Source: a virus
Virus record (IMG/VR): IMGVR_UViG_3300050034_000403
Span: 25,229-89,228 of that record
Reading direction: 5' to 3' (one strand)
DNA length: 64,000 bases
The position numbers and the translations under genes are program-made. Shown in pieces: positions 6,268 to 64,000 of the stretch (position 1 is its first letter; each line of letters opens with the position of its first letter). The notes below the pieces were generated by a model, which searched no databases, was not told the origin of the DNA, and worked only from the letters and a program-made list of their open reading frames with translations.

Positions 6268-6288
6268 GATGACTCCTTGCTTCGGTTA

Positions 6289-6648
6289 TTAAAACTGGCC
6301 GACGAATGCACCAAGCTGAACCGACTCGCCCGAAAGATTCGTTGTGCTTGTCACTTCAGCCCCAACTGTGCCAGCAGTGGCCAAAGCGACAAACCAGCGG
6401 AGATACCACTGCTGTCGCGCACCAGTTCCTGCGGGATTCGGGTAAACCACATACTTACCGCTCACGCTTGTCACGCCACCGAGAAGAGCATCGATGTAGT
6501 AGTTCGGCAGGTTCAGCGTCACCAGATCCCCTGTGCCAAGGACATAGGACGCGGGGCCAGTACCACTCCCGACAAAGGTCGCGCGTCGACCGATAAAGTC
6601 TGGATAAAGTGGACCGCCGCCGCCTTTTGTGATCGCTGTAAGAACCAT
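6289..6648 (-). CDS. Small virion or decoration-type protein, paralogue lacking the DUF3494 insert
   Basis: 119 residues from ATG 6648, chosen because AAGGAG lies 6 nt upstream. Aligns end to end with the two terminal segments of the 335-residue neighbour at 5260-6267. It contains the shared GPLYPDFIGRR, VGSGTGPASYV, GARQQWYLRWF and LSGESVQLGAFVGQF segments. Together they show a tandem duplication in which one copy received a large domain. Location directly after the capsid and 280-residue gene suggests a capsid or neck surface protein. Confidence 0.65.
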   Translation of the reverse strand: MVLTAITKGGGGPLYPDFIGRRATFVGSGTGPASYVLGTGDLVTLNLPNYYIDALLGGVTSVSGKYVVYPNPAGTGARQQWYLRWFVALATAGTVGAEVTSTTNLSGESVQLGAFVGQF

Positions 6649-6719
6649 GATTGCTCCTTGCTGCAATGACTCGATGACAATGTGCAGGGACGAGCATTGC
6701 TGCCCGTCCCCAACCGTAA

Positions 6720-10395: not shown

Positions 10396-10503
10396 CTACG
10401 CCTTGATGGCGCTGCGCTTGCCGCGGCCCTTGCGACCACGACTCTTGCGGCCCTTCTTCAGATGGCTTGCCTTCATTGCACTAGCCTTGCGACGTTTTGC
10501 CAT
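10396..10503 (-). CDS. 35-residue protamine-like basic protein
   Basis: Begins MAKRRKASAMKASHLKKG and ends RGKRSAIKA; about half the residues are Lys or Arg, with no acidic residues. Start chosen at 10503 because AAGGAGG lies 9 nt upstream. It has its own promoter (10615-10643) and the conserved leader element copy 2, so a 35-codon gene has about 110 nt of dedicated 5-prime control. Likely binds DNA or RNA, perhaps packaged or condensing; inference. Confidence 0.7.
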   Translation of the reverse strand: MAKRRKASAMKASHLKKGRKSRGRKGRGKRSAIKA

Positions 10504-10530
10504 GATGTTTTCCTCCTTGGTGTGAAATAG

Positions 10531-10596
10531 AAATGGCCCAAGGCCATTTCTGGTCTTGAGCCATTGCTGATTCCCCAAGGAGGGGGGGCATGCCGC
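10531..10596 (-). ncRNA. Structured leader RNA element, copy 2
   Basis: Minus-strand leader of the 35-residue basic gene. It has GCATGCC, a CCCC-TCCTT-GGGG hairpin, then AATGGCTCAAG, a 12-nt loop and CTTGGGCCATT forming an 11-bp stem with one G-U pair. The internal AAATGGCC-TTG-GGCCATTT hairpin is mutually exclusive with that stem. Lies 27 nt before the start codon. Confidence 0.7.
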
Positions 10597-10614
10597 TCAA
10601 AAGATTCTGTTAGA

Positions 10615-10643
10615 GCTATAAGCCGAATTCTTTTTCGCGTCAA
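10615..10643 (-). promoter_or_regulatory. Sigma70-type promoter for the 35-residue basic gene
   Basis: Minus strand TTGACG, 17 nt, TATAGC. It lies immediately upstream of leader element copy 2. The region (TTGACGCGA, AATTCGG) is similar to that upstream of copy 3 at 16461-16489. Confidence 0.6.
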
Positions 10644-10652
10644 GTGTTATTT

Positions 10653-10892
10653 TTACAAAATCGTTTCGTCTACATCCAGAATCTTACGAATCTCTTCCGC
10701 TTGTGCATCAGAAATCTTAGTGCGCTGTTCGAGATTTACTCCCTGCACAGAACCCTGGTTATACTGAACAACCATCTTTCCGGTTGTTCTTGTAGCTTGG
10801 AGTAACTCGTCGGTCTGCTGAATATCGGCAGGTAATTCGACGCTTACTTCGGTCAAATAGTAGTCTTTTTGAACCTTGATTTGGACTGCCAT
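10653..10892 (-). CDS. Hypothetical protein
   Basis: 79 residues (MAVQIKVQKDYYLTEVSVEL to LDVDETIL). Mixed beta then helix; no motif recognised. Follows the portal stop by 9 nt and has AAGGAG before its ATG. It is likely cotranscribed with portal and ends near the promoter of the small basic gene. A virion accessory role is possible from context. Confidence 0.55.
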   Translation of the reverse strand: MAVQIKVQKDYYLTEVSVELPADIQQTDELLQATRTTGKMVVQYNQGSVQGVNLEQRTKISDAQAEEIRKILDVDETIL

Positions 10893-10901
10893 GTCTTCTC
10901 C

Positions 10902-12977
10902 TTAGCTTTCGCTTACTACCGTGCGCGGTTCTCCACCTTGCGCGCCTTTTTGCTTGATCTTGGGCGGCTTTCCTCCGCTCGATGGCCGACCGCCACCAGC
11001 GCCCTTGCCACCGCCGCCGCCCTTACCACCGCCCTTACCACCGCCACCTTCTTCTGGTGGCTGAATTCCGAGCTGCTTCATAAACTGCTGTGCCGCAGCA
11101 GCCGCAAGAATCTTCAGCTTTTGCGATTCCAGCTCTTCGTTGAACCATTTTTCATGTTCGGTATTTCCCTGCACCTCGCCATAGTTGGGGATATCGAGGT
11201 TCTTCATCACCGTCGACCAAGAAATCGGCGCACCACCACGCTTCAGTTGCAGCATCATCAATTGACGTTGCATCTGCGTCACCTTCAACAGCGTGCTCGG
11301 CACCGATACCAACCGAATCTGCTTGGCAAACCAACGCGCACGCGTCAGCTGGTTGTAATGCGATGGATCTTCGGGAAAATTACCGCTGATCATCTCGTCG
11401 GGCATGTGGCTCGGAACCAGATCGTCTGGATTAAAGTCAAAAACCTCTCGTGCAATGCTGTCTGGTCCCACATACTCCATGATTCGTCCGACGTTGAACC
11501 ATTGCAGGATCAGGAATTTCATGCGGTAACCAACCGCCTTATTGCCTTTTTCAATGCGTGCGGCAATGCCCTTTGCAATTGGGCCAATGGACTCCAGCAT
11601 CTTGTCGGCCGTGTCATTGGCAATGTTCATCTTCATGTTCTGAAGATTGCCAAGATCCGTCAGGCCCAACTGCGACTGCTTGCACTCCTTCAAATACTTC
11701 AAAAACGTGAAATGCTCCGAGCTAACACGAACTTCTTCAGGAAGAATCGACTGAAGGATGTCTCTCGGCTTGCCGTCTACGCCGTAGCGCACGTCTTGCT
11801 CAAAGATGTCAAAATGCTCAATCTTTGCGCCGCCTGTGGCGGTGTGGTCATAACCGATCGGCGGATTCAACGTAATCGTGATTACGTCGTCTATCTTGCG
11901 CTCGATCTTGCGCGTCGTTGTTTCAATCGATGCCACATCACCTACTAAAGAACGTCCCAGAGGCTCCCAAGCCCAATCATCCACGGTGTACTGAATCACT
12001 GGAATCTTTCCATCCCAGTCAAAGCTTGGTCCGTCGTACATGGGCCGATCGAGTCCAGTGGAAGTAATGATGAGTCGCAGGTTCGGATACACGCGGCAAT
12101 CTTCTACCGTCGCCGGTCGCATGTACGCCAAGCCGTTGCGCATGCCGCCAAAAATCATTTGGCCAACATAGGGAACTTTGTAGAACCAACTGGTGCCAAC
12201 ATCTCCCATTGGCAATTCATAACCGGTATTGTTGATTCGGAGGTCGCGAATAAACGTGTAGCGAATTTCGCAATAAAGATTGCCAAAACTCCGGTTTGGG
12301 CCACCATAGCGGAAGCGCTCGGCGTAATCCATCCGTCGCGCTTGAACCTGCGTTTTGTAACTACGCGGTCCAACTGTCTGCAATTGTCCCTGGAAAAGCG
12401 GGAAACGACCGTGAGCTTCTGCGATCGGCATGTAGTCGTAGACCGTGACGGCGTAAGCATCCTGCACGTCGTTGCTTCGAGGAATCTGAACAGGAACTAC
12501 ATCCAGCAGGCCCAACGCATCGAACACCATCTTGCGTTCGCCATAGCCATATTCGTCCGCGCGCACCTTTGGCCACAGATAACCGATACCGGTAACGCTG
12601 GCATACTGCAAAACTTTCAAAATCTGGAAAGGAAAATCGGATTCCAGGTAGACGCACTTTGATACCTTGGTCAGCATCTCTGCCATTTGCTTATATGCAG
12701 GGATATCCGACCCATATCCGGCAATTTCGCGCACTTCGGAAAGAGTTTCGCAGAACTTGCGGATGTCGTATTTCAGTTCATTGGTGACAAGAATTGACCG
12801 CGACTTATCTCTGAAGATGGCATCGAAAATGCGCATATTCGTGCCCAGGTTCTTGTAGCATGTCTGCCCTTCAAGAAACCCTTCACCTTCTTCGATTTGT
12901 TCCTCGACCCATCCAGCACGCGAACTCGGCGAGGATTCAAACTTTGGGCATTGCCAGCAGGTAGTTTCTAGCTCCAT
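10902..12977 (-). CDS. Portal protein
   Basis: 691 residues from ATG 12977 (MELETTCWQCPKF), preferred over an in-frame TTG 9 nt upstream because of GAGGG spacing. Length and position between terminase and scaffold fit the large portals of P22-like or podo-like phages. Supporting segments: KVRADEYGYGERKMVFDALG, IPVIQYTVDDWAWEPLGRSL (typical portal wing or stem region), and VASIETTTRKIERKID. The C-terminus has Gly/Lys-rich repeats (GGGGKGGGKGGGGGKGAGGG), an unusually long flexible tail. Forms the dodecameric ring through which DNA enters the head. Confidence 0.82.
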   Translation of the reverse strand: MELETTCWQCPKFESSPSSRAGWVEEQIEEGEGFLEGQTCYKNLGTNMRIFDAIFRDKSRSILVTNELKYDIRKFCETLSEVREIAGYGSDIPAYKQMAEMLTKVSKCVYLESDFPFQILKVLQYASVTGIGYLWPKVRADEYGYGERKMVFDALGLLDVVPVQIPRSNDVQDAYAVTVYDYMPIAEAHGRFPLFQGQLQTVGPRSYKTQVQARRMDYAERFRYGGPNRSFGNLYCEIRYTFIRDLRINNTGYELPMGDVGTSWFYKVPYVGQMIFGGMRNGLAYMRPATVEDCRVYPNLRLIITSTGLDRPMYDGPSFDWDGKIPVIQYTVDDWAWEPLGRSLVGDVASIETTTRKIERKIDDVITITLNPPIGYDHTATGGAKIEHFDIFEQDVRYGVDGKPRDILQSILPEEVRVSSEHFTFLKYLKECKQSQLGLTDLGNLQNMKMNIANDTADKMLESIGPIAKGIAARIEKGNKAVGYRMKFLILQWFNVGRIMEYVGPDSIAREVFDFNPDDLVPSHMPDEMISGNFPEDPSHYNQLTRARWFAKQIRLVSVPSTLLKVTQMQRQLMMLQLKRGGAPISWSTVMKNLDIPNYGEVQGNTEHEKWFNEELESQKLKILAAAAAQQFMKQLGIQPPEEGGGGKGGGKGGGGGKGAGGGRPSSGGKPPKIKQKGAQGGEPRTVVSES

Positions 12978-20409: not shown

Positions 20410-21028
20410 GTTGCGTCTATTCGGCGCACTGTAGAAGCTGTTTGATTGTTGCGCTTATCCAGCGCACTATGACTATCTTGCAACCTTTTTATAGCCAAAA
20501 AGCCGTGATGATTCTCGTGTTGCATCTACTCGATGCACTGAAACTGCCTTGTGACTTTGTGCTATTCCTTGACGCGTTGCGCTTTCTCGGCGCACTCATA
20601 CGTCTATAAATATCCCTTGTGTATTATTGCGCTTATTCAGTGTATTGTTGCGCTTATCCAGCGCACTCCTACTTTGTCGCACATGTTGCATCTCTCCGAT
20701 GCACTTTGACTGTACACCCCTACCTATCCATGTTGCATCTGCTCGATGCACTCATACTGTGCTCCTCAACCTATCCATGTTGCGCCTATGCGGTGCACTG
20801 AAACCGCATTACTGCGAAATCCAAGGCTCACGTACGTTGCATCTTCTCGATGCACTTCAACCAGTCTGCTATACAGCAGACAAAAACGAATGCCAATGGA
20901 GGTTGCATCTGTTCGATGCACTCATACGGATTTGGTACGGGATGCTGTTGTTGCGCTTATCCAGCGCACTAGAACATCTTGTCAGCTCATTCTTCAGGTT
21001 GCGCCTGCTCGACGCACTCATATGACAC
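20410..21028. CRISPR. Array 1: degenerate CRISPR-like hairpin array
   Basis: At least 12 units at 20410, 20448, 20519, 20576, 20626, 20647, 20685, 20732, 20779, 20836, 20902, 20950 and 20998. Each keeps the 5-prime core (GTTGC, stem, 5-nt loop, stem, ACT) but most have lost the 3-prime tail. Start-to-start spacing is irregular (21-71 nt). Stems vary with compensation: TGCATC/GATGCA, TGCGCT/AGCGCA, TGCGCT/GGCGCA, TGCGCC/GGTGCA, TGCGCT/AGTGTA. Only 20448 and 20519 keep a full 37-nt unit. Open frames through it are artefacts. Reads as a decayed version of arrays 2-4. Confidence 0.75.
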
Positions 21029-28519: not shown

Positions 28520-28541
28520 CGCTTATGATAGCGGTCACTTT

Positions 28542-28550
28542 TTTGATAGG
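28542..28550 (+). promoter_or_regulatory. TTTGATAGG motif, copy 1
   Basis: Followed by a T-rich stretch (CCCAAACTTTTC) and a GCGGC-GGCACA-GCCGC type hairpin before the start at 28606. Same arrangement as the other copies. Confidence 0.5.
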
Positions 28551-28605
28551 TGCCCAAACTTTTCACCTTTAGCGGCGGCACAGCCGCAAGAATGGAGCTT
28601 TCACC

Positions 28606-28917
28606 ATGGCACAGGAACCGAAACAGATTATCGCAATTCCGGAGTTGGACAGCGCGGCAGGCGCGGCACAGATGGAAATCAGCACCGAAAAGTATGACGA
28701 CGGCCGCCTTGTTTCCGCCGCTCACCTGCATTTTGTGAAAGATGGCTCACTCACGTTTAGAGTGTACGGCGATTTTCGTAAGGTCCTTTTGCGCACCGTT
28801 GCCCGCGCAACGCAGAAGAATCTGAACACGCAACACGCCAGCGTGTTCACGCCTGCAGCCATCGACGCATTGAAAGCGGAAGCGCTCGCCTTCTACGCCG
28901 AAAAGAGGAAAAAGTGA
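28606..28917 (+). CDS. Hypothetical protein
   Basis: 103 residues MAQEPKQIIAIPELDSAAGA, then SAAHLHFVKDGSLTFRVYGD. Ends KAEALAFYAEKRKK. Ribosome binding site GGAG lies inside the leader ATGGAG. Overlaps the next microprotein start as GTGA. No family recognised. Confidence 0.55.
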   Translation: MAQEPKQIIAIPELDSAAGAAQMEISTEKYDDGRLVSAAHLHFVKDGSLTFRVYGDFRKVLLRTVARATQKNLNTQHASVFTPAAIDALKAEALAFYAEKRKK

Positions 28918-29006
28918 AAATTCAAGCTTTGCGCTTTGGCTTGCCTCTTTCCATTGCGCTGTACGCGCTAGGCTATGTCCTAGTCCGGCATTTTCTCCAG
29001 CACTAG
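28914..29006 (+). CDS. 30-residue single-span membrane microprotein
   Basis: GTG start overlapping the previous TGA. VKIQALRFGLPLSIALYALG then YVLVRHFLQH. One hydrophobic helix (FGLPLSIALYALGYVLV), positive N-terminus. AAGAGGAAAAA upstream. Small phage membrane peptides often inhibit host proteins or act in lysis timing; here function unknown. Confidence 0.45.
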   Translation: MKIQALRFGLPLSIALYALGYVLVRHFLQH

Positions 29007-29012
29007 CACCCT

Positions 29013-29038
29013 GCCCGCCCGTGGGCAGATACGCGGGC
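29013..29038 (+). promoter_or_regulatory. Leader hairpin of class B, copy 3
   Basis: GCCCGCCCGTGGGC, 4 nt, TACGCGGGC, ending 11 nt before the next ATG. Confidence 0.55.
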
Positions 29039-29049
29039 ATAGAGGGAGC

Positions 29050-29319
29050 ATGAAAGCTCATTTTAACTACCCTGTGGAATTCCAGACACACCCCGATTAC
29101 AGGGCACATTCCGGACAAGTCGTGGAAATTGTGCGTGCACTAAGCAGATTAGAAGCAGACTTTCATGACGACCCGCAACTTGAACGCATGTTCAAAATTC
29201 GCGCGGCCGATGGATGGCAGGGCGATGCTTTTGAAAGCGAACTTTCGCGCCCGAAGAATATCACGGTGAAAGAGTTTGCAAAATTCTGCGATGGCCTTGT
29301 CAGAGACGCAGCGAAGTAA
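29050..29319 (+). CDS. Hypothetical protein
   Basis: 89 residues MKAHFNYPVEFQTHPDYRAH, then VVEIVRALSRLEADFHDDPQ. Start 11 nt after class B hairpin copy 3 with AGGGAG. Helical. No family recognised. Confidence 0.55.
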   Translation: MKAHFNYPVEFQTHPDYRAHSGQVVEIVRALSRLEADFHDDPQLERMFKIRAADGWQGDAFESELSRPKNITVKEFAKFCDGLVRDAAK

Positions 29320-29326
29320 CAGCTCC

Positions 29327-29348
29327 GCCCGTGGGCTAGTACGCGGGC
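29327..29348 (+). promoter_or_regulatory. Leader hairpin of class B, copy 4
   Basis: GCCCGTGGGCTAGTACGCGGGC shortened form: GCCCG and CGGGC pair, the upstream GCCC is replaced by CTCC. Ends 11 nt before the next ATG. Confidence 0.5.
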
Positions 29349-29359
29349 AAGGAACGGCG

Positions 29360-29509
29360 ATGTATAACGACACGGTTTTACTCCTTGCTCTAGGCGTTGT
29401 GGGTTTTTGGTGCTGGCGACTGGACGAGCATCTGCACACGACAAAAGAAAGCATTCTCGAACGCTTGGACGAGCTGGAAAAGCAACTCAAGGAAAGCCGG
29501 AAAGCGTAA
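29360..29509 (+). CDS. 49-residue membrane-anchored coiled-coil protein
   Basis: MYNDTVLLLALGVVGFWCWR (one transmembrane helix), then a coiled coil ESILERLDELEKQLKESRKA. Similar in architecture to small Rz-like or holin-accessory proteins, but there is no lysis gene nearby. Start 11 nt after class B hairpin copy 4. Confidence 0.55.
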   Translation: MYNDTVLLLALGVVGFWCWRLDEHLHTTKESILERLDELEKQLKESRKA

Positions 29510-29517
29510 TCTAACAG

Positions 29518-29534
29518 AGTCCAGATTCCAGACT
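29518..29534 (+). repeat. Gene-end palindrome, copy 2
   Basis: AGTCCAGATTCCAGACT, 9 nt after the stop at 29509, directly followed by TTTGATAGG copy 2. The stem has two mismatches relative to the ideal form. Confidence 0.45.
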
Positions 29535-29542
29535 TTGATAGG
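29534..29542 (+). promoter_or_regulatory. TTTGATAGG motif, copy 2
   Basis: Followed by CAACAGATTTTTAAC and then the hairpin GCGGC-ACA-GCCGC, AAGGAG and the ATG at 29586. Confidence 0.5.
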
Positions 29543-29585
29543 CAACAGATTTTTAACGGCGGCACAGCCGCAAGGAGAAAAGAGT

Positions 29586-30038
29586 ATGTCTGCATTTATG
29601 GTCAGCAAAGAACACATTGACGCAATTATTGCCGTAGTGGCACAGGGTCCGGCACAGTCGGAACAAGACCGGCAGCAGTGGGAAGATTCCATGAAATACG
29701 GTATTCTCCCGGACTCTTCAGATCCGCTTGGCGAGTTGGGAAATACGCTCATCCGCGAGAATCTGGCCAGCATCAATGCGCGCTATCCCGATACGGTTAA
29801 CCACCCCGAGCGCGTACCCGGCCCGTGTGAGCCTTATTGGCTGGTCCCGTACGTCTTCCACAGCCCGAAGCGCATCCCTACCGTTGTTGAGGCATTCAAG
29901 CTGATTCATTCCTATCAGTATCAGAGCTGCGAACATAACGGTTGGGAAACCTCGCAGGCAAAGCGCACTTGTGAAAAGTTGATTAACCTCTTGATTATGG
30001 CGCTGCCCGGCTACAAAAGCGCCAAGTGGGAAATCTAG
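29586..30038 (+). CDS. Conserved plasmid/phage protein of unknown function
   Basis: 150 residues MSAFMVSKEHIDAIIAVVAQ. Contains NTLIRENLASINARYPDTVN, then AFKLIHSYQYQSCEHNGWET and CEKLINLLIMALPGY, a pattern (VSKEHID ... YQSCEH ... A) found in proteins common on plasmids and phages with no assigned function. AAGGAG upstream. Behind motif copy 2. Confidence 0.6.
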   Translation: MSAFMVSKEHIDAIIAVVAQGPAQSEQDRQQWEDSMKYGILPDSSDPLGELGNTLIRENLASINARYPDTVNHPERVPGPCEPYWLVPYVFHSPKRIPTVVEAFKLIHSYQYQSCEHNGWETSQAKRTCEKLINLLIMALPGYKSAKWEI

Positions 30039-30043
30039 GCATA

Positions 30044-30057
30044 TTTGATAGGCGACC
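30044..30057 (+). promoter_or_regulatory. TTTGATAGG motif, copy 3
   Basis: TTTGATAGGCGACC followed by CGGG-TTTTT-CCCCG hairpin and the ribosome binding site of the gene at 30107. Confidence 0.5.
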
Positions 30058-30106
30058 AATTCACGCGTAACAGTCGGGTTTTTCCCCGGCAGAATCGAGG
30101 AGCACC

Positions 30107-30505
30107 ATGGAATTTCAATTAAAAATCGAATTAGGCAATGACGCCATGCAGACGGCTGACGACATTCGCGCAGCCGTAAAGGACGTGGCCAAGTATCTCA
30201 AGGATTGGCGCCCCGGCGAGCTGCCCGAAGCTGGGGACAATGCGCCTATCCGCGACGTAAACGGGAACACTGTGGGCGGGTGGGAGATAGTCAAGCACGC
30301 GCCCGCGTCTAATCCGCTCGAAGATCCAAGCAACCTGGCCACCGTTCTAGCTGCCTTGCGCCTGTTCCAACGCACCTATGACGGCTACGCCGCAAAGCAC
30401 ATCTATGATGCGTTCCCGGATCACTTCACGGCCGCCGACGGCAGCACTATCGAGCCGCTTAGCACCGATGACATTGACGCGCTTTGTGTGGATCTGAACG
30501 CGTAA
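30107..30505 (+). CDS. Hypothetical protein
   Basis: 132 residues MEFQLKIELGNDAMQTADDI. N-terminal segment NDAMQTADDIRAAVKDVAKY resembles small phage proteins of unknown function. C-terminal helical half (NLATVLAALRLFQRTYDGYA). AGGAGCACC upstream. Behind motif copy 3. Confidence 0.55.
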   Translation: MEFQLKIELGNDAMQTADDIRAAVKDVAKYLKDWRPGELPEAGDNAPIRDVNGNTVGGWEIVKHAPASNPLEDPSNLATVLAALRLFQRTYDGYAAKHIYDAFPDHFTAADGSTIEPLSTDDIDALCVDLNA

Positions 30506-30514
30506 ACTTGCCCT

Positions 30515-30523
30515 TTTGATAGG
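30515..30523 (+). promoter_or_regulatory. TTTGATAGG motif, copy 4
   Basis: Followed by CGACCAACTTTTTCC, then the hairpin TCCGG-AATTT-CCGGA and a GAGG ribosome site before 30575. Confidence 0.5.
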
Positions 30524-30574
30524 CGACCAACTTTTTCCAACTATCCGGAATTTCCGGAGGCATGAGGTAACACA

Positions 30575-30739
30575 ATGAAAACGAAAACCTATGTTTTTTC
30601 TGTGACTCTGAAAGGCAAAGGCGACAACCCGGACGACGCCTGGAAGGATGCAGTCGACGCATTTTCACTCGACGCCGGCATTACGCCCGACGCCTACGAA
30701 GAAGAGGACGAAGACAGCGACGACGACGAAGACAGCTAG
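30575..30739 (+). CDS. 54-residue acidic protein
   Basis: MKTKTYVFSVTLKGKGDNPD, then DDAWKDAVDAFSLDAGITPD and an Asp/Glu tail (EEEDEDSDDDEDS). Strongly acidic C-terminus. ATGAGG upstream. A small beta-alpha protein with an acidic tail could mimic DNA, as several phage anti-defence proteins do; this is speculation. Confidence 0.6.
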   Translation: MKTKTYVFSVTLKGKGDNPDDAWKDAVDAFSLDAGITPDAYEEEDEDSDDDEDS

Positions 30740-30748
30740 CGCACCCCA

Positions 30749-30757
30749 TTTGATAGG
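30749..30757 (+). promoter_or_regulatory. TTTGATAGG motif, copy 5
   Basis: TTTGATAGGGGACACTTTTT, then a GGGGC-TCA-GCCCC hairpin and the methyltransferase start at 30826. Confidence 0.55.
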
Positions 30758-30825
30758 GGACACTTTTTTCATGACAATCACGATTTTTTAGCAGGGGCTC
30801 AGCCCCAAGAATGGAAGAAAACACC

Positions 30826-31821
30826 ATGGCAACCATGACCATGCCCGCCGTCCGCACCGCCACCACCCCCACCAGCAAACTCGTTATCCGTTTCCGCACC
30901 TGGGCCGATGCCCTGCAGCCGAAGATCGAGCACGCAGGCCGACCGATGACGCAGAACCCGACGCCGAAGCGTCAACGGGAATATCAGGGCCGGATGCACG
31001 ATTGCCGCAACCTGGAGCGCACACAGCGGGCACTGCGCGCCCTGGCCGATGCGCTCGAAGCCGGAACGGTTCCGCCCGAGCTGGCCGCGCTTACCAAGAA
31101 AGCTGAAATTGAACACATGGTGCATAAGGGAATCGATTGCGGCAGGGGCGGCTATTATTCCGTGATGGAATCGGACGACTACGCCGAGACTTCGCCAGCG
31201 GCGCGGCTCCTGCAAGGCATGATCGAGGGCAATTCCGCCGAGCGCACCGAACGCGAACGGCTGCGCAAGATTGACGCGCTCGCGGCCGAAATCAAGCTCA
31301 GTAGCTACCCTGGCTATTTCCCCACGCAGAAACCCGTGATTGAAATCATGCTGCGCCGTGCGCACATTCAGCCCGGCATGAGGGTATTAGAGCCGGAAGC
31401 CGGTAGCGGAGACATTGCCGATGGCGTGAGCGCGGCGGTCCCTGGCGTCATTTTGGAAGTGATCGAGCCGGTTTTCAAGCTCCGCGAGCTGCTGGAGCTG
31501 AAGGGCTACAAGCTGGTAGGCGAGGACCTGATGCAGCTTTCACGCTCCGAGCTGGGCCAGTATGACCGCATTGTTATGAACCCGCCTTTTGAGCGGCAGC
31601 AAGACCTCGACCACATCCGCCGCGCCTACAATCTGCTCGCCCCGCGCGGTATCCTGGTCTCTGTCTTGAGTCCAAGTTTTGAATTCCGCTCAGACCGCAA
31701 GAGCACCGATTTTCGCGCGTGGCTGGATGAGGTAAGCGCCACGTGGGAAAACCTGCCCGAAGGATCTTTCAAGGCCAGCGGTACAGGCGTCAGCACGCGG
31801 CTTTTAGTCGTTGAGCGATAG
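30826..31821 (+). CDS. SAM-dependent DNA methyltransferase
   Basis: 331 residues from ATG 30826, chosen for GGAAG upstream. Motif I VLEPEAGSGDIADG binds S-adenosylmethionine and motif IV NPPF (RIVMNPPFERQQD) places it among N6-adenine or N4-cytosine DNA methyltransferases. Then HIRRAYNLLAPRGILVSVLS fits motif V-VI. The N-terminal 150 residues are helical and may bind DNA. No cognate nuclease is adjacent, so it is probably an orphan that protects phage DNA. Confidence 0.82.
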   Translation: MATMTMPAVRTATTPTSKLVIRFRTWADALQPKIEHAGRPMTQNPTPKRQREYQGRMHDCRNLERTQRALRALADALEAGTVPPELAALTKKAEIEHMVHKGIDCGRGGYYSVMESDDYAETSPAARLLQGMIEGNSAERTERERLRKIDALAAEIKLSSYPGYFPTQKPVIEIMLRRAHIQPGMRVLEPEAGSGDIADGVSAAVPGVILEVIEPVFKLRELLELKGYKLVGEDLMQLSRSELGQYDRIVMNPPFERQQDLDHIRRAYNLLAPRGILVSVLSPSFEFRSDRKSTDFRAWLDEVSATWENLPEGSFKASGTGVSTRLLVVER

Positions 31822-31828
31822 GAGACTC

Positions 31829-32065
31829 ATGGGCTACGCGCAGGCGATGAAATGGCAACGCACCCACCGCAAGGGAACTCGGCAGCCGGTTCTGATGTCC
31901 ACCGGCTCCGGGTTCTGGCCCGCTCATTCCTGGCTGGAAAGAATCTTCTGGCCATACCTCAAACGGTGCGAGGCGGCTGGTATCGAGCCGATGGAATGCC
32001 AAGCCTATTACAATGCAACGCTCAGCGGCGGCGCAGGCGACCCGCGCCTCTCTGAACAGGATTAA
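31829..32065 (+). CDS. Small conserved mobile-element protein
   Basis: 78 residues MGYAQAMKWQRTHRKGTRQP, then STGSGFWPAHSWLERIFWPY. Follows the methyltransferase by 7 nt with TAGGAG upstream. Its Trp-rich pattern is met in short plasmid and phage proteins of unknown function; probably works with the methyltransferase. Confidence 0.5.
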   Translation: MGYAQAMKWQRTHRKGTRQPVLMSTGSGFWPAHSWLERIFWPYLKRCEAAGIEPMECQAYYNATLSGGAGDPRLSEQD

Positions 32066-32073
32066 CACCCCAT

Positions 32074-32082
32074 TTTGATAGG
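32074..32082 (+). promoter_or_regulatory. TTTGATAGG motif, copy 6
   Basis: TTTGATAGGGGACACTTTTT followed by the hairpin CTAGG-ACCCAGC-CCTAG, about 70 nt ahead of the VapBC pair. Confidence 0.5.
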
Positions 32083-32197
32083 GGACACTTTTTTCACGCA
32101 TAGACGCGTTTTTAACTAGGACCCAGCCCTAGCCCAAACGTATAACCAAATTTATGCTCAAATGGGTGCTATAGTTGGTTCACGGAGGAAACAAGGC

Positions 32198-32395
32198 ATG
32201 AGAGCAACCGTATCCCTTGACGACAATCTGTTACGAACAGCAGAAGAGTACAGCGGCTTGACAGAAAGGGCAGCATTGATTCGCGCCGCATTAAAGTCAC
32301 TGATTGCGAGAGAAGCCGGTCGTAGACTTTTGGCTTTGGCCGGAACCGCCCCGGACATTGAGGACGTGCGGAGATTGCGAGTAGCTGAACAGTGA
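32198..32395 (+). CDS. vapB: VapB-type antitoxin
   Basis: 65 residues from ATG 32198. MRATVSLDDNLLRTAEEYSG then ERAALIRAALKSLIAREAGR is the ribbon-helix-helix of the VapB/DUF2191 type, with a C-terminal tail RLLALAGTAPDIEDVRR that blocks the PIN toxin. Overlaps the toxin start (GTGA). Confidence 0.85.
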   Translation: MRATVSLDDNLLRTAEEYSGLTERAALIRAALKSLIAREAGRRLLALAGTAPDIEDVRRLRVAEQ

Positions 32396-32763
32396 TTCTC
32401 GCAGACACTTCAATCTGGATAGCCATGTTTCGAACTGGCGCTTACAGTGCAGAGCTGCACACATTGATTGCCAATGATCAACTCTGCACGCACCCTTTTT
32501 TGATTGCGGAGCTAGCACTCGGCACATTGCCAGAACGCAAAAAGACACTGGCGTATCTTGACCAGCTAATTTCTATTCCTCCCGTGCAATTGGAGGACAT
32601 TCGGTACATGATCGAGGCACGGGGATTTGCTTCAAAGGGAATCGGCTTAACGGATGCGCATTTAATTGCATCTTGTTTGGCAATTCCGGGAACTCTGCTT
32701 TGGACTCTTGATCGCAAACTGGGCAATGTCGCTGAATCTCTGAACATTCGCGCTACTCTCTAA
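32392..32763 (+). CDS. vapC: VapC PIN-domain toxin
   Basis: 123 residues, GTG start overlapping VapB. MILADTSIWIAMFRTG supplies the first catalytic Asp, LIAELALGTL the Glu, IGLTDAHLIASCL the D/A-H segment, and LWTLDRKLGNVAE the last Asp. PIN toxins cleave tRNA or rRNA. Likely stabilises the element or aborts competing infection. Confidence 0.9.
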   Translation: MILADTSIWIAMFRTGAYSAELHTLIANDQLCTHPFLIAELALGTLPERKKTLAYLDQLISIPPVQLEDIRYMIEARGFASKGIGLTDAHLIASCLAIPGTLLWTLDRKLGNVAESLNIRATL

Positions 32764-32783
32764 CACCCCAAGGAGCCAACACC

Positions 32784-33335
32784 ATGAGCAAGCCTGAAGT
32801 ATCCCGACGCAACGAAGACGGAGACCGCATCGCCGTCATTCACTCATACGCGCCTGGAGACGGTAACCTGTCTTTTGTGGCCGCCGATGTCGAGCATCCT
32901 CACAGCGCCGTTTCTCCCAGTCCAACCCGCGAAGAGTGCGAGGCCGCGTGTCCCGATGGCTGGGAACTCTATCAGGAAGGGCCGTCCTGGCGCGCTCGCA
33001 GGTTCGCGACTGCCTCGCCAATTACCGCACCGATTCTGCTCCCGCTTCCGGCGCTGAAGGAAAAAGACTTTTCCATTGAAGCCGACGCACAAGGCTACCG
33101 GATCATTTACAAGGGTCACAACATCGGCGGAGCCGGTACTCTCGGCAAATTCAAAGGAGCGGGAAGACCACGCGCCGGTTTTCCAAACCGCGCAGTCGAA
33201 CAGACGGCGGATTACCACCAACAGGCGCAATCTGAAATAAAGAGTCTCCTTGCCGGTCATGGACAGGCACGCTTTCAAACCATCATCGACGAAATCGACG
33301 CTGAACCAGTCCCGGACTTCAAGCAACCCTCATAG
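32784..33335 (+). CDS. Hypothetical protein
   Basis: 183 residues MSKPEVSRRNEDGDRIAVIH. Contains a beta-rich N-terminal half and a segment YRIIYKGHNIGGAGTLGKFK followed by GAGRPRAGFPNRA, then a helical C-terminus. AAGGAG upstream, 20 nt after vapC. Not recognised. Confidence 0.55.
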   Translation: MSKPEVSRRNEDGDRIAVIHSYAPGDGNLSFVAADVEHPHSAVSPSPTREECEAACPDGWELYQEGPSWRARRFATASPITAPILLPLPALKEKDFSIEADAQGYRIIYKGHNIGGAGTLGKFKGAGRPRAGFPNRAVEQTADYHQQAQSEIKSLLAGHGQARFQTIIDEIDAEPVPDFKQPS

Positions 33336-33340
33336 CACGT

Positions 33341-33349
33341 TTTGATAGG
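33341..33349 (+). promoter_or_regulatory. TTTGATAGG motif, copy 7
   Basis: TTTGATAGGGGACACTTTTT followed by GGGGC-TCA-GCCCC hairpin before 33415. Confidence 0.55.
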
Positions 33350-33414
33350 GGACACTTTTTCAACGACAGAAACGCATTTTAACGGGGGCTCAGCCCCAGA
33401 AAGGCTTTTGCCTT

Positions 33415-33996
33415 ATGCCTCTTTTGGCTACCGTTCCTACTCCTCCCACGCCGATCAGCGCACCGGAACCAGAACGCCACAGAGGCCGACCAGCCCTCAC
33501 AGATGAAGAGCGCGAAGAGCGGCGACTTGCACGGAACAAAGCACGGCGCGAACAGCGCCAAGCCGCGCACGTTGCCGTAGAACCCCCGCCGCCTGCCGTG
33601 GAAGTCGAAGAACCCCAGCCCACTCCACCACCAGCGCCACCACACGTTTACTTTGCGCTGGGCCAACGTGCCCGCGCTTTGCTGGGCTTTGGTCTAGGGG
33701 CATTCGTGCCCCTGGCCAGCTACATGGAAATTCACTTTGAAGTGGGTCACCACCCGCAGCTCTGGTTTCTCGTGGCCGGGGCGCTTGCTTACTCCGCGAT
33801 CAGCGTCTACACCTGGGCCGTCGAGGCCTTTCATTACCAGCTCAAGGCACTCGGCTTTGTCGTGCTGCTTGAAGGCACCATGACGTTCTGCAGCATCCTC
33901 TGGCTGAGTTTGGCCGGGCTGGCAATTCTCATGATCCTGAACGCCATCACCGCCGCTGTTACGTTGCAGGCGCGCAGTCCGGATTCCGGACTCTAG
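33415..33996 (+). CDS. Four-helix membrane protein with basic/proline-rich N-terminus
   Basis: 193 residues. N-terminal 80 are Pro/Arg/Glu-rich with an AT-hook-like RGRPALTDEEREERRLARNK. Then four hydrophobic segments (ALLGFGLGAFVPLASYM, LWFLVAGALAYSAISVY, ALGFVVLLEGTMTFCSI, LWLSLAGLAILMILNAI). A membrane anchor with a nucleic-acid-binding cytoplasmic arm is unusual; function unknown. Its stop lies within gene-end palindrome copy 3. Confidence 0.65.
   Translation: MPLLATVPTPPTPISAPEPERHRGRPALTDEEREERRLARNKARREQRQAAHVAVEPPPPAVEVEEPQPTPPPAPPHVYFALGQRARALLGFGLGAFVPLASYMEIHFEVGHHPQLWFLVAGALAYSAISVYTWAVEAFHYQLKALGFVVLLEGTMTFCSILWLSLAGLAILMILNAITAAVTLQARSPDSGL
33976..33992 (+). repeat. Gene-end palindrome, copy 3
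   Basis: AGTCCGGATTCCGGACT, perfect 7-bp stem with ATT loop, encoding the last residues and reaching to 4 nt before the end of the membrane protein gene. Confidence 0.55.
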
Positions 33997-34067
33997 CAAA
34001 TCGCTCGGCGGTGCGAATACAAGTTGACGCATTGATACGACAGGCGCAAAGTATTGGATAGGCCCTA

Positions 34068-34076
34068 TTTGATAGG
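34068..34076 (+). promoter_or_regulatory. TTTGATAGG motif, copy 8
   Basis: TTTGATAGGGGACCAAG followed by a T-run, 60 nt upstream of the gene at 34128. A weaker GGATAGG copy lies 12 nt upstream (34056-34062). Confidence 0.5.
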
Positions 34077-34127
34077 GGACCAAGTTTTTTTGAATACTCC
34101 GGCAATTCAAAGAACCGAGGCGAAAGA

Positions 34128-36663: not shown

Positions 36664-37967
36664 GTTGCATCTATGCGATGCACTTCAACTGCATTGCTAC
36701 CGATATGGTAGCGCTGTCGCTACGGATTTCGCGTTGCACTTATCCAGTGCACTTCAACTGCATTACTACGCTGGTGGGTCCTTGTAAGTTGCATCTACGC
36801 GATGCACTCAAACTGCTTTGATGCTTGCTACCTTTTGGCACATTTCCATTTTTCCAGTAGTTGCATCTATGCGATGCACTGAGACTATTTTGCGACACGG
36901 AGTTGAATCAAGAAGCAATAAGCCTGTTGCATCTATGCGATGCACTTTGACTGCTTTGCTATCCCACTAATAAGCCTTTGCAGGATCATTTTCCCAGTTG
37001 CATCTGCTCGATGCACTTTAACTACCTTGCGACCATGTGAGAATGCTGGTGGCTCTCTCTTGACGAAGTTGCATCTGCTCGATGCACTCAAACTACATTG
37101 CGACACGGCTACGGAAGCCGTCTTGCTGCTGCTATGAATGTTGCATCTGTTCGATGCACTTTAACTACCTTGCGACGACTGTTTATGCTTTTGAACTCAC
37201 ACACTACGACCGTTGCATCTGTTCGATGCACTGAAACTACATTGCGACAGCAGAAAAAATCGAGAAATGATTCCGATACCATGTTGCATCTGCTCGATGC
37301 ACTGAAACTACCTTGCGACGAAACCTGGAAAACCTGTCCACCGGGACCGTAATAGTTGCATCTGCTCGATGCACTAAAACTATCTTGCGACGTTCGACTT
37401 CAGCCAAGAGAGACATGACCGCGAGTGTTGCATCTGTTCGATGCACTTAAACTATCTTGCGACCCTATAATTTGTCCAGACACTAGCGTCCACAACCGTT
37501 GCATCTGTTCGATGCACTGAAACTGCCTTGCGACGCATGTACTCCCAAAGCGTGTACTCTTGATGCAAGTTGCATCTGTTCGATGCACTGAAACTACATT
37601 GCGGCTTGGTGAGCCCTTGGAAAGTGTTAGCAGGTCATCAAGGTTGCATCTGTTCAATGCACTGAAACTATCTTGCGGCATGATCGAGCAGTTGAGCAAT
37701 ACAAGGTGCGATACGCGTTGCATCTGTTCGATGCACTTTAACTACCTTGCGACACGAAATTGCGGGACTCTTTTACCAGGTGATGGATGTTGCATCTGTT
37801 CGATGCACTGAAACTACATTGCGACCTAAACATCACCATGCAGGACAAGCTCGACCTCCAGTTGCATCTGTTCGATGCACTGAAACTACATTGTGACTCG
37901 CCACCTTCGGAAGAAACAAGAAGACCAGAAGTTGCATCTGTTCGATGCACTGAAACTACATTGCGGC
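36664..37967. CRISPR. Array 2: CRISPR-like array, 19 repeats
   Basis: 37-nt repeats starting at 36664, 36733, 36788, 36860, 36926, 36997, 37068, 37140, 37212, 37283, 37355, 37427, 37498, 37569, 37643, 37717, 37789, 37861 and 37931. The main form on the plus strand is GTTGCATCTGTTCGATGCAC followed by TGAAACTACATTGCGAC. Spacers are 33-37 nt and all different (two left-end ones are shorter). Period 69-74 nt. The left five repeats diverge (tails ending TTGCTAC or GATGC, and one with the compensated stem TGCACT/AGTGCA), while the right 14 are nearly constant. By usual CRISPR behaviour the leader is then on the right, and transcription would be leftward. No cas gene is nearby. Confidence 0.9.
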
Positions 37968-38103
37968 TGCGCTCATTATAACGCTTTGCGATTGAAGAAG
38001 ATCAAGGACGTTTTTCGCGAACCTCGCAAATCTGCGCTCTTCTAGTTGGGATGCTCGATACAATGCCCTCATTATCTCCTTCAAAATCATTTTCTTACGC
38101 CTT
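37968..38103. promoter_or_regulatory. Candidate leader of array 2
   Basis: 136 nt between the conserved end of the array and the terminator of the lysis unit. Moderately AT-rich with TTTTTCGCGAACC and CATTATAACGC. No coding frame. If the array is transcribed leftward, this is where its leader promoter should be. Confidence 0.4.
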
Positions 38104-41252: not shown

Positions 41253-41994
41253 GTTGCATCTATCCGATGCACTGCAACTGCATTGCTACGATGTCCATCC
41301 TAGCCAGTTTCCCATTGTTGGTTGCATCTACGCGATGCACTCAAACTACCTTGCGACCGGAGACTACGGTGTTGCCCACCCTGATCTAGTTGTTGCATCT
41401 GTTCGATGCACTTAAACTACCTTGCTACCCCACGCCCACGTTGCTTTGAAGCGGTTGCCGTTGTTGCATCTATCCGATGCACTAAGACTATCTTGCTACA
41501 CGTTTGCAGATTACCGTTATCGCATCTGGGGCGTTGCATCTATGCGATGCACTTTGACTGCTTTGTTACCTGGCAGTACACGCATGCGTGACAGTTCGAA
41601 CAGTTGCATCTACTCGATGCACTTCAACTGCTTTGCTACGAAGCGGATGTGCTATTCGCTGGGTATCTTAATGGTTGCATCTACGCGATGCACTCAAACT
41701 GCCTTGCGACCAAATGCTGGAATTTGTGAATGCAGCTTTAAAACGTTGCATCTGTTCGATGCACTTCAACTACCTTGCGACATTGACCGAAGGTCAAGCA
41801 ACTCATGCTAAGTACGTTGCATCTACTCGATGCACTGAAACTACCTTGCGACCAGCGAGACAGGTTCATCACTGGCGAGTCGTTGAAGTTGCATCTACGC
41901 GATGCACTCAAACTACATTGCGACCAGTATTTCGACCGCATGAATCGCTTTGCCATGGTTGCATCTGCTCGATGCACTTCAACTACTGGGAGTG
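41253..41994. CRISPR. Array 3: CRISPR-like array, 11 repeats
   Basis: Repeats start at 41253, 41321, 41392, 41463, 41533, 41603, 41674, 41745, 41816, 41888 and 41958. Period 68-72 nt, spacers about 33-35 nt. Core GTTGC, stem TGCATC/GATGCA constant, loop variable (TATCC, TACGC, TGTTC, TACTC, TATGC, TGCTC). Tail ACTTGC.AC varies between GCGAC and GCTAC. The last repeat loses its tail at about 41983. Frames through it (for example 41675-42139) are translation of repeats, not genes. Confidence 0.9.
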
Positions 41995-53057: not shown

Positions 53058-53270
53058 TCAAGCCACTTTCCGTCTGCGCACCACCACAGACCGGTAAACA
53101 GCTTTCTTCGTTTTTTCCTCTGCATTCCAGCGCAGAACGTCAAGCGCGCAAATCCGCTGCAGCGCCCAAGTGCGATCCAGCAGATGCTCGTCGGCGGCTC
53201 TGGCCAATGCCCGCCGAAAAAGTACCAACTCAAACGGATTCATCGTCACGGTTACATCGGTTTTAGCCAT
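53058..53270 (-). CDS. Hypothetical protein
   Basis: 70 residues MAKTDVTVTMNPFELVLFRR, then ALARAADEHLLDRTWALQRI. Its start overlaps the primase-helicase stop by 1 nt. Basic tail (VYRSVVVRRRKVA). Probably a replication accessory. Confidence 0.5.
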   Translation of the reverse strand: MAKTDVTVTMNPFELVLFRRALARAADEHLLDRTWALQRICALDVLRWNAEEKTKKAVYRSVVVRRRKVA

Positions 53271-55930
53271 TAGTCATACCTCTCAATCGATGCATGAACA
53301 TTGGGATCAAACGGAATTGGTCCCCTCTCCAGCGGCACCAAAGCCAAGTTCCCGCCGCCGTGCTGAATGGTGAAGGAGATCGGCTCACGAGATTCAGCCG
53401 CCTTGGTTTCAAACTCGGCGCGACGGATCATCTTTTTCTCTCCAGCGTCTTCAATCGAGAAACCGATGGACCATTCCGTCCAGCCGTGAATCGAAGTTGC
53501 TCCGCGAATGCGCGTGAAGAAGCGACCGTTGCCAGCTTCCTTGCTCACGTGGTGAATCACGCCGATGGCACAACCGGCTTGCTGGCCCATCTGGCCAATC
53601 TTTTTCACCACCTGCGCCATCTCTGTGTTGTTGTTCTCGTCGCGGTTGTGCAGCCGGTTCAGCACGTCGAAGATGGCAAACTCCACGCCACGCTCTTTCA
53701 GGTCTTCGGCCATGTGCGTCAGCTGGTCGTCGTTGTCCACGTCAAAGTCGCCAAGCTGTTCGCGCGTGTTCACCCACAGCCAGCCTGTCGGGTCTTCCCC
53801 AGGGTCAATGCCTTTTCCGCGCAGCAACGCCTGCATGCGCACCTTGGTCAGCATCGGAGAATCCTCGCGGCTGATGTAGGCCGTGCGGATGCGGCGGGGA
53901 ATCTTGCACCCCAGCCACGGCTTGCCTGTGGCCAATGAAAGCAGCAGATCGAGCGATGCCAGGGATTTTCCAGTCTTCGGCTCGGCCGCAATCATGCCGT
54001 TGCCGCCTACCTGGATTACGCCATCCACCAGCCACTCGATTTCCGCATCGGCGGTCATGGACCATTCCACAGCGTCCACCAGCCAGTTCTCTCTCTTGGC
54101 ATCCGTTCCCACCCAGAGAGGCGATTCCACAATTCGCTTCTCCAGCTCGGCCACGGTGTGTTCTTTCAAAAAGTCGCTGACGTCGCTTTTCTCCGGCATC
54201 TCCGGGAAGGAGATCACGCGCACGGCATAGGCAAAGGGAGCAACGGAAGCCGCAACCGTCTCTGCGTAGATCTGGCCAGGCTCGTCGTGGTCGGCGAAGA
54301 TCATCACCTGCTTGCCGGTAAAGTACGGCGCGTAAGAGTCCAGCCACTTCGGCGAATGCCCCTTCTGCCATGCACCGTCGTAGGTCGTCGTCGTGGCAAT
54401 TGAAAAGGCATGCTTGGCGAAAAGATCGGCTTCCAGAAGATTGTCCGCATCCTTTTCGCCCTCGCATTGTCCACAAACCATTGACTTTCCGTTGCGGCGC
54501 ACTACGATAAAACCCGATGGAACAGTGCAGCAATAAACTTCCCCGGCATAAGGCTTCGATGTATACGCTTTGCCTTTTACGCCAATGCATTGCCGCCACA
54601 TTTTTGGCTGCAAATTGAGAATGTATTCTGTGTGACTGTTCTGTCTTTGTCTTTCCCGCACAGTCATCACACAAGAATGGCCAGTAATCGCACAGCATGC
54701 GCTGATGATCTGTGCATTATTTTCATCTGCCGTAAAATAGCGCAAGCCATTGCTTCCAATACCATCACCATCCCAATAGCGCAATTCGTCCAAAACCGCT
54801 GTACGCACCGAAACAGGCCAATTTAGCATCTCCCAGCTAAATTTTTTATCTGGAAGAAAACGCAGCATGCGAAGTTTTTGCCGATTTTCCAAGATGAACA
54901 ATGTCCATCCTGGCGTAGATTTAAACTCCATTTCTCGCCACGACAATTTGCACGCCATCAACAATGAACGCAGATGCTTTTTCTTGCGCTCCTTTTTCAA
55001 ATTCCAGGTCAGTTGATAACCACGCGGATAGATTCCGTCCGCCTGAATACTTACCAGTAGCCGCGCTTCGGCAATCGTCGGCACATCAGCGTTTTCACCT
55101 GTTGAAATGCCCGAAGTGGGCAATTGCCAACAAGAACGAACATCGTCGGCAGCAACCACCACAGGATCGCTGTAACTTTTTTGGTCCTTTTTTCGGCGTA
55201 TCAGCGTGCGATGTTCTGGAGTCACCAAAAGATCGCACCAACGTCCGTGAAAGTTAACTAAGTTTCCGTCAAAATCAAATTTCTGCACAGCGCTTGGATG
55301 TACCCACTGAATCGATTCATCTTCACGCGTATATTGCGCAATCGTATGCTGAACCGTTAATTGCGGAAGCGGAATCCAGCCAGACGGTGTAAGCACTTCG
55401 GTATCCGGCGCATAGCAGAAAAAAACGATATTTGCCTTCACCAGATGCGGCAGGTTGTAGAGCACGCGCCGCGTCCGTTCGCCTTCCTTGGCGTCGATGC
55501 CCGGCTTCCATGCACCATCCACCAGCCGGAAAACGCGGAAGGTCTTTTCGCCAATCTCTGGCTGGTAACGCCGCTTCTGGAACAGTGCCAATCCGTTCTC
55601 GTCGCGATAGTCGTAGATCGCCACGGGGGGTCCGAGCTGCATCTCACCCTCACGGCGTGCCACCGGCGCGGCTCCGGTAATTTCAGCCACGTTGGTTTCG
55701 GCTTGCTCCAGCGAGCAGTGAGAGAACCGCGCTTCGAACTGGAAGACGTTGCCCTTGGCGCCGCAGGCGTGGCAGTTGAAGCCGCCGTTCCCGTCCAGGA
55801 AGAGCGTGCAGGATGGAGTCGCTTCGTCGTGGAAGGCGCAACGCACGGCAGCCTTCTCACGCGCCGGAATGTGCTGCCCTGGGTGGCGGTGTTCGAAGTA
55901 GTGCCGAATTTGGTCGAAGCTAAGCTGCAT
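53270..55930 (-). CDS. Primase-helicase (CHC2/TOPRIM plus RepA-like ATPase) interrupted by an intein
   Basis: 886 residues. Residues 1-90 form a CHC2-type zinc finger (CAFHDEATPSCTL, CHACGAKGNVFQF). The TOPRIM motif is split by the intein: the host sequence VFF before the intein joins CEGEKDADNLLEADL after it. Downstream GKQVMIFADHDEPGQ continues TOPRIM. A RepA/DnaB-like AAA ATPase follows, with Walker A AAEPKTGKSLASLD and Walker B FAIFDVLNRL. So one protein synthesises primers and unwinds DNA. It is overlapped by the DUF1376 gene at its start. Confidence 0.9.
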   Translation of the reverse strand: MQLSFDQIRHYFEHRHPGQHIPAREKAAVRCAFHDEATPSCTLFLDGNGGFNCHACGAKGNVFQFEARFSHCSLEQAETNVAEITGAAPVARREGEMQLGPPVAIYDYRDENGLALFQKRRYQPEIGEKTFRVFRLVDGAWKPGIDAKEGERTRRVLYNLPHLVKANIVFFCYAPDTEVLTPSGWIPLPQLTVQHTIAQYTREDESIQWVHPSAVQKFDFDGNLVNFHGRWCDLLVTPEHRTLIRRKKDQKSYSDPVVVAADDVRSCWQLPTSGISTGENADVPTIAEARLLVSIQADGIYPRGYQLTWNLKKERKKKHLRSLLMACKLSWREMEFKSTPGWTLFILENRQKLRMLRFLPDKKFSWEMLNWPVSVRTAVLDELRYWDGDGIGSNGLRYFTADENNAQIISACCAITGHSCVMTVRERQRQNSHTEYILNLQPKMWRQCIGVKGKAYTSKPYAGEVYCCTVPSGFIVVRRNGKSMVCGQCEGEKDADNLLEADLFAKHAFSIATTTTYDGAWQKGHSPKWLDSYAPYFTGKQVMIFADHDEPGQIYAETVAASVAPFAYAVRVISFPEMPEKSDVSDFLKEHTVAELEKRIVESPLWVGTDAKRENWLVDAVEWSMTADAEIEWLVDGVIQVGGNGMIAAEPKTGKSLASLDLLLSLATGKPWLGCKIPRRIRTAYISREDSPMLTKVRMQALLRGKGIDPGEDPTGWLWVNTREQLGDFDVDNDDQLTHMAEDLKERGVEFAIFDVLNRLHNRDENNNTEMAQVVKKIGQMGQQAGCAIGVIHHVSKEAGNGRFFTRIRGATSIHGWTEWSIGFSIEDAGEKKMIRRAEFETKAAESREPISFTIQHGGGNLALVPLERGPIPFDPNVHASIERYD
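54467..55417 (-). other. Intein with LAGLIDADG-type endonuclease in the TOPRIM motif
   Basis: Residues 172-488 (317 aa). Starts CYAPDTEVLTPSGWIPL (Block A, Cys1). Block F/G-like VYCCTVPSGFIVVRRNGKSM ends VCGQ, followed by Cys as +1. The usual penultimate His is absent (Gly-Gln instead), an uncommon ending. The centre has LLVSIQADGIYPRGY and ELRYWDGDGIG, two DOD-type endonuclease motifs. Splicing would rejoin IVFF to CEGEKDAD and restore TOPRIM. Confidence 0.9.
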
Positions 55931-63392: not shown

Positions 63393-64000
63393 GTTGCATC
63401 TATTCGATGCACTAAAACCGCATTGCTACGGTGGAATGTCCACTTCTTCGTCAGACGTATACAGTTGCATCTATCCGATGCACTAAAACTGCGTTGCTAC
63501 AATAATCTCCCAATGGAGTGGGAACCCGACTATGTTGCACTTGTCCAGTGCACTAAAACCGCGTTACTGCATCGGCTTTTTGTATTTCTCCGTGTTGACG
63601 ACAGGTTGCACTTGTCCAGTGCACTAAAACTGCGTTGCTACGCCTGTCCATAAAGAATAAGCCTGAGGACATTAAGTTGCACTTGTCCAGTGCACTAAAA
63701 CTGCGTTGCTACGCCCAATGTCTCCGATGATGCTCTCTGGACGAACGGGTTGCACTTGTCCAGTGCACTAAAACTTCGTTGCTACGAGGTGCCGAGATGG
63801 GCAAAGACAACATTTATGTGGTTGCATCTATCCGATGCACTAAAACTTCGTTGCTACCACCCAAGATGGTGAACACCGATGGGCGCTCCACCGTTGCATC
63901 TATGCGATGCACTAAAACTGCGCTGCTACCGTCTCAGACCGTTACAGGCATCAACGTATAAATGTTGCACTTGTCCAGTGCACTAAAACTACGTTGCTAC
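63393..64000. CRISPR. Array 4: CRISPR-like array, 9 repeats visible and continuing
   Basis: Repeats start at 63393, 63464, 63534, 63605, 63676, 63749, 63821, 63893 and 63964; the last ends exactly at the window edge. Period 70-73 nt, spacers 33-36 nt. Two stems alternate within one array: TGCATC/GATGCA with loops TATTC, TATCC and TATGC, and TGCACT/AGTGCA with loop TGTCC. Tail mostly AAAACTGCGTTGCTAC. Both bases of the stem change together, so the stem is under selection. Confidence 0.9.

Follow-up and report, generated by a model that had tools for sequence, protein, structure and literature searches.

What keeps a hairpin in a family of phage-borne repeats whose stem sequence changes? The question is raised by a stretch of 64,000 nucleotides (the window, 25229-89228 in a virus record of 89,228 bases; the record ends inside the fourth array) from the contig of a temperate phage, the viruses concerned being assigned to peat-soil Acidobacteria. 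The original prediction was of 50-plus repeat units with covarying stems, read either by one effector that senses shape or by several effectors; 51 units are present in the window, in four arrays with the pattern GTTGC-stem-loop-stem-GCACT on the strand as originally read (Table 1). We hold with considerable confidence that these are phage CRISPR arrays of a type V system with an effector of the Cas12m/V-U1 branch, in which the hairpin is kept for Cas12 and acquisition of spacers is rare.

Table 1. Repeat arrays of the phage contig and associated features (window coordinates unless another source is named)
Feature	Position	Strand	Description
Array 1	20410-21018	minus	12 units, decayed for the most part to hairpins with the 5′ repeat half nearly gone; spacing 38-71; stems TGCATC, TGCGCT, TGCGTC, TGCGCC and intermediates
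Array 2	36664-37967	minus	19 units; the repeats become degenerate from the right (leader) end, where they are most alike, to the left
Array 2 leader	37968-38077	minus	GGTTCGCG motif starting 56 nt before first repeat (RNA sense); TATAAT box
Array 3	41253-41994	minus	11 units, period 68-72, every stem TGCATC/GATGCA
Array 4	63393-64000	minus	nine 37-nt repeats, 33-36-nt spacers; runs off contig end
Fifth array	1.5-2.0 kb of contig, outside window	opposite to other four
L064 array	L064:3957-4276		chromosomal, in an acidobacterial MAG; phage-type repeats and leader motif, 0.3 kb from tRNA-Gln

Over all the arrays analysed, in the window and elsewhere, such units form regular arrays of repeats and unique spacers matching foreign DNA, with 255 intervals of 62-82 nt. 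Array 4 (repeat in RNA sense GTAGCAACGCAGTTTTAGTGCATCGGATAGATGCAAC, plus a TGCACT variant) does carry two stem types side by side, as had been reported: five TGCACT/AGTGCA and four TGCATC/GATGCA units are interleaved at a period of 70-73, and the remaining 16 nt are nearly identical. The third stem that had been placed there, TGCGCT/AGCGCA, is absent from it and occurs instead in array 1.

Among other classes considered for the repeats, a tRNA or known RNA family was set aside, only tRNAs having been found in the search; so were integron attC sites, whose period and spacers were judged unfit, and coding tandem repeats, since a period that varies from 70 to 74 does not keep to a multiple of three. 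A BLAST search with array 2 as query found no matches among phages and plasmids. One spacer of array 1 is common to another virus record (L032), which suggests retained single guides. Elsewhere in the window are an intergenic element, TTTGATAGGGGACACTTTTT, in six copies (28524-34107) with a GGCGGC..GCCGC hairpin family nearby (D8, 23 nt, four copies), a primase/helicase with a possible intein (53270-55930; Hint_2 match at residues 172-261, under the Pfam cut-off), and a protein with an ice-binding-like domain near the major head protein gene (5260-6267); a 233-nt direct repeat is at 6006-6622.

The RNA strand is, as judged from sequence, the minus strand, and a unit is predicted to read as a 37-nt repeat with a 3′ hairpin and then a 33-36-nt spacer (5′-GTAGCAACGCAGTTTT-AG-TGCATC-GGATA-GATGCA-AC-spacer). 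Three features point this way. Several arrays, when read opposite to the original strand, have a GGTTMGCG motif and a TATAAT-like box just ahead of their first repeat, with the motif lying within 110 nt of it in 7 of 24 arrays (0.14 expected); the repeats of array 2 are graded in likeness from its leader end; and in a sister phage, G001, the cas12 gene and its array have the same orientation. A strand-specific wobble test (22 GU against 11 CA, p 0.08) was non-significant and gives no support. At two stretches of G002 (L090:2222-3991 and 6417-6900) the loop is UGUUC, the reverse complement of the window's GAACA, as if a palindromic hairpin had flipped.

The sister phage, which matches the window at 99.7% identity along 17.7 kb that include array 3, has its cas12 at 10474-12495 and directly after it, from 12706, an array with the same downstream flank as array 4 and four of its spacers in the same order; a RuvC-domain Cas12 adjoins an array in other records also. 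In the 89-kb contig of the window's phage neither Cas12 nor Cas1 was found, and since it breaks off inside array 4 this phage's own cas12 would be expected just beyond the contig end. Several spacers of the same array differ between the two phages; in the five repeats compared, 6 of 185 sites are changed, against 0 of 138 in the four shared spacers (p 0.04). A profile search detected Cas12 in seven virus contigs. In G233, which has Cas12, an array was searched for and none found. A host-like MAG locus, L062, has a 689-aa Cas12 beside TGCATC units. Of the 22 virus records tested, five have a homologue of it at 59-63% identity (two of the records, G003 and G021, look like one virus), with a single match in each, and Cas12 was also matched in one of three MAGs tested. 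Cas12 is present in 4 of 398 genomes of the Acidobacteria MAG's family; in G414 the match spans 105 residues only. A hairpin scan of the species-genome collection yielded six stretches, of which Acidobacteria MAGs account for three; the three single matches in non-acidobacterial genomes look like chance.

The effector, of about 750 aa, appears closest to Cas12m (V-M/V-U1) by profile and fold matches. Nine homologues were aligned, 48-63% identical to the G001 protein, and the PADLOC Cas12u1 and Cas12f profiles match all nine with similar scores; the Pfam Cas12f1-like TNB matched in five of five. Cas12m is top in a PDB profile search (4e-14), and with a predicted model of mediocre quality (mean pLDDT 69) the best Foldseek match is Cas12m2 (4.7e-18), a second structural aligner giving tied Z for Cas12m and Cas12f with the same model. 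PDB entries for Cas12j and Cas12l are present among the structural search rows. Structural matches begin near residue 120, leaving some 120 extra N-terminal residues. On visual inspection of the alignment, the RuvC residues are D-E-D in six of the nine, E-E-D in two and D-E-N in one.

Cas1, searched for in 12 records (seven virus, five MAG), is present in five. In G006 and L099 it lies with cas4 and cas2 between cas12 and the array, making complete cas12-cas4-cas1-cas2-array loci, and it was not found in the other five of the seven virus records searched. Repeat uniformity was tabulated for arrays of at least five units (28 rows with duplicate loci dropped, some rows being the same array in different records): mean identity is 1.000 and 0.963 in the two cas1-adjacent arrays, and runs from 0.978 down to 0.65 in the remaining ones. 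Arrays without a nearby cas1 mostly drift, and do so in a set order, the 5′ 16 nt decaying first (down to 0.40 identity) and the hairpin last, its 21 nt staying at 0.83-0.98. The finder alone does not produce this contrast, since regular intervals (255) far outnumber gaps with the length of an overlooked unit (four). Because the two arrays next to cas1 are so uniform, absent or rare spacer acquisition is plausibly the better explanation of the drift. Fairly uniform repeats are also met without a known cas1 (L064 0.978, L024 0.962, G002 0.936), and the link between uniformity and cas1 is therefore drawn from two loci; a search for cas1 in G012 and G002, which are fragments or an incomplete MAG, found none. 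The corresponding arrays of the window phage and G001 differ in spacers and so are not frozen, some turnover going on although cas1 was not found. For comparison, type VII systems lack an adaptation module and have repeats with multiple substitutions (PMC12669027).

When about 100 phage spacers were compared with the 398 genomes of the Acidobacteria MAG's family, matches, judged by E-values and PAM, were obtained in 24. Eight distinct spacers matched, of which seven were examined (a G132 match at query positions 2487-2516, and rows without loci, were left out), and 5′-TTC adjoins the protospacer for four of the seven (chance 2e-6). For the array 2 spacer at 37464-37497, a protospacer identical at 32 of 34 positions lies next to 5′-TTC in an acidobacterial MAG, G020, where a protospacer of a G003 spacer, again by TTC, is 89 bp away. 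Spacers of G006 and L046 match one and the same locus in G208, both after TTC, with VirB/TrbC and XRE-peptidase genes close by. The three spacers without TTC match rlmI-like, rfbB-like and transposase-like genes (our reading of the translations), and thus conserved genes of hosts or a transposase, which counts against the scheme favoured here. Most protospacers stand by TTC or TCC, with exceptions, as for the T- or C-rich 5′ PAM of V-M. By sequence match, then, phage spacers correspond to a conjugative element and other loci beside 5′-TTC, and the guides look to be aimed at rival genetic elements, mainly other mobile ones. Comparison of phage spacers with phage sequences gave no convincing match, and two window spacers plus PAM gave zero matches to viral_contigs.

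The stem does change on both sides together. In 42 repeats chosen from ten sources (seven virus records, three MAGs), pairing holds in 250 of 252 stem cells (99.2%), both-sided change occurs at four of the six stem pairs, and the covariation score, 0.446 (0.197 in shuffles), was reached by none of 500 shuffles and was at most 0.093 when the stem partner was slid. A larger test started from 251 distinct repeats and kept the 203 with close neighbours in the 16-nt part, 48 being dropped before the tree was made. On a tree built without the stem columns, the two inner stem pairs rank first and third among 666 column pairs, joint changes numbering 15 at pair 23-31 and 13 at pair 24-30 (expected 0.6 and 0.9) and pairing being kept in every one; no comparable column pair was found outside the four inner stem columns. 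Both tests thus gave the predicted outcome of covarying stem pairs and no comparable others. That shape is read rather than sequence was too strong a statement, as there is hardly any variation in the outer pairs, TGC/GCA, or in the AG and AC that flank the stem (the finder partly required them; in a check for this bias, only four gaps had the length expected of an overlooked unit, and 255 intervals were regular).

On a full-repeat tree the joint changes at the inner pairs are only 2 and 3, and the four inner columns move together in 12 of 15 changes, which implies that most units carry copied stem blocks. Stem type is never switched in units with a spacer common to two loci (142 spacers are shared between loci; the repeats differ at seven, one of these being a locus cut at its end). 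The window's two stem types are copied and shuffled blocks from two or three founding events, with no stepwise drift between them, and since they are inherited whole, a few founder repeats copied as blocks, the outcome named in advance as refuting, largely account for the paired changes within these phages. The first description does stand in that the hairpin is retained as the sequence changes. Had the stems arisen once or twice by chance and been spread by recombination with pairing unselected, the scarcity of events and the stability of stem type would follow. That this is the whole explanation is unlikely: across lineages pairing is conserved with TGCATC, TGCACT, TGCACC, TGGCTC and TGCGCT stems (nearly all stems of L098 are TGCACT or TGCGCT, those of L099 mostly TGCACC and those of G169 TGGCTC), the hairpin outlasts a 5′ half of 0.40 identity, and all joint changes on the stem-free tree, 15/15 and 13/13, preserve the pair. 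The locus in G169, a MAG (L076:9892-12351), has cas12 and three units, stem TGGCTC/GAGTCA, two of which share longer flanks (46 nt, 85% identical).

Several effectors, one per stem type, acting on a mixed array would suit the distinct stems of those three lineages, each with its own Cas12; against the idea stand the single Cas12 match per record, the one cas12-adjacent array of G001 with TGCATC, TGCACT and TGCGCT units, and the host-like L062 Cas12 beside TGCATC units, and we regard it as highly improbable. The repeats might instead be decoys or orphans, Racr-like or mini-array-like, that exploit or poison a host Cas12 and are not part of a phage-owned system. Cas12 is missing from the 89-kb contig and from 17 of the 22 virus records tested, and host-like MAGs with cas12 exist; against this, the sister phage's cas12 adjoins a homologous array, two of the seven virus contigs with cas12 have full adaptation genes, and the arrays are long, with matching targets, not single repeats. 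Decoys are accordingly an improbable reading, and the sequence evidence makes it very likely that the phages own a type V CRISPR system near V-M.

In the favoured scheme, of phage arrays serving a Cas12m-like effector, each array would be transcribed from the minus strand and each unit processed to a crRNA with a short 3′ hairpin (AG, 6-bp stem, 5-nt loop, AC) followed by a guide of about 34 nt. The Cas12-crRNA complex would bind DNA beside a 5′-TTC-like motif and, by analogy with Cas12m, probably block transcription. With D-E-D kept in six of nine enzymes, DNA cutting may also occur; a published DED-type Cas12m did not cut its target (PMC11013384). New spacers would rarely or never be added by cas4-cas1-cas2 at the drifting arrays, whose repeats would vary because they are not renewed by copying during acquisition. 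Purifying selection would then act only on the hairpin bound by Cas12, the 5′ half decaying, and the stem is proposed to survive because Cas12 recognises a conserved hairpin.

A chromosomal array (L064; Table 1) appears to be directed at these phages. All five of its spacers match them, with 2-7 mismatches at the best sites: h1 after TYC at 8/8 homologous phage sites, h2 within the G002 cas12, h3 in a G003 gene for a DNA methyltransferase, and h4 and h5 with no clean TYC in ungapped alignment. The fourth and fifth spacers are alike, and both match one phage site at a gene start. No Cas12 or Cas1 was found in its MAG (only 2.4 Mb). It is a tentative and rather doubtful idea that L064 crRNAs could load into the Cas12 of an incoming phage and silence that phage, its cas12 gene included, so that the effector is turned on its owner.

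Both phage CRISPR and V-M are already known in kind. With type V-M (V-U1) Cas12m the present system has in common an effector that seems nearest to it by sequence profile and fold, a repeat hairpin, a T/C-rich 5′ PAM-like motif and carriage by mobile elements; it differs in the longer protein with its N-terminal extension, in multiple dispersed arrays with drifting repeats, and in the cas4-cas1-cas2 of two phage loci, which typical V-U1 lacks (PMC11013384). Cas12j and Cas12l are borne by large phages. Together with the type I-F system of phage ICP1, aimed at competing elements (PMC11656645), they share phage carriage of CRISPR loci against competitors; they have effectors of other branches, whereas up to five arrays with heterogeneous repeats occur per contig here. 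Type VII resembles the drifting arrays in the traits given above, yet its effector, Cas14 with a beta-CASP nuclease, is unrelated, and retention of the hairpin is seen here for phage arrays. Viral mini-arrays and RNA anti-CRISPRs are also CRISPR repeats on viruses in inter-virus competition (PMC11656645), with one or two host-copied repeats in place of the 5-24 units and virus-borne effector found here. What appears new is a phage system resembling V-M in which adaptation genes and drifting repeats occur, no description of it having been found in the open-licence PMC literature, including passages of PMC10442227, PMC11013384, PMC11656645, PMC12669027 and PMC12607003.

Type V thus gains a phage-borne branch close to Cas12m, which in two phages comes with a full adaptation operon. 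Its arrays, ranging from uniform to decayed, make up a natural series in which the requirement of adaptation, the entire repeat, can be told apart from that of the effector, the hairpin, and by this the minimal crRNA of this Cas12 becomes predictable from sequence. The same series is a ready test of the rate at which CRISPR repeats decay after acquisition stops.
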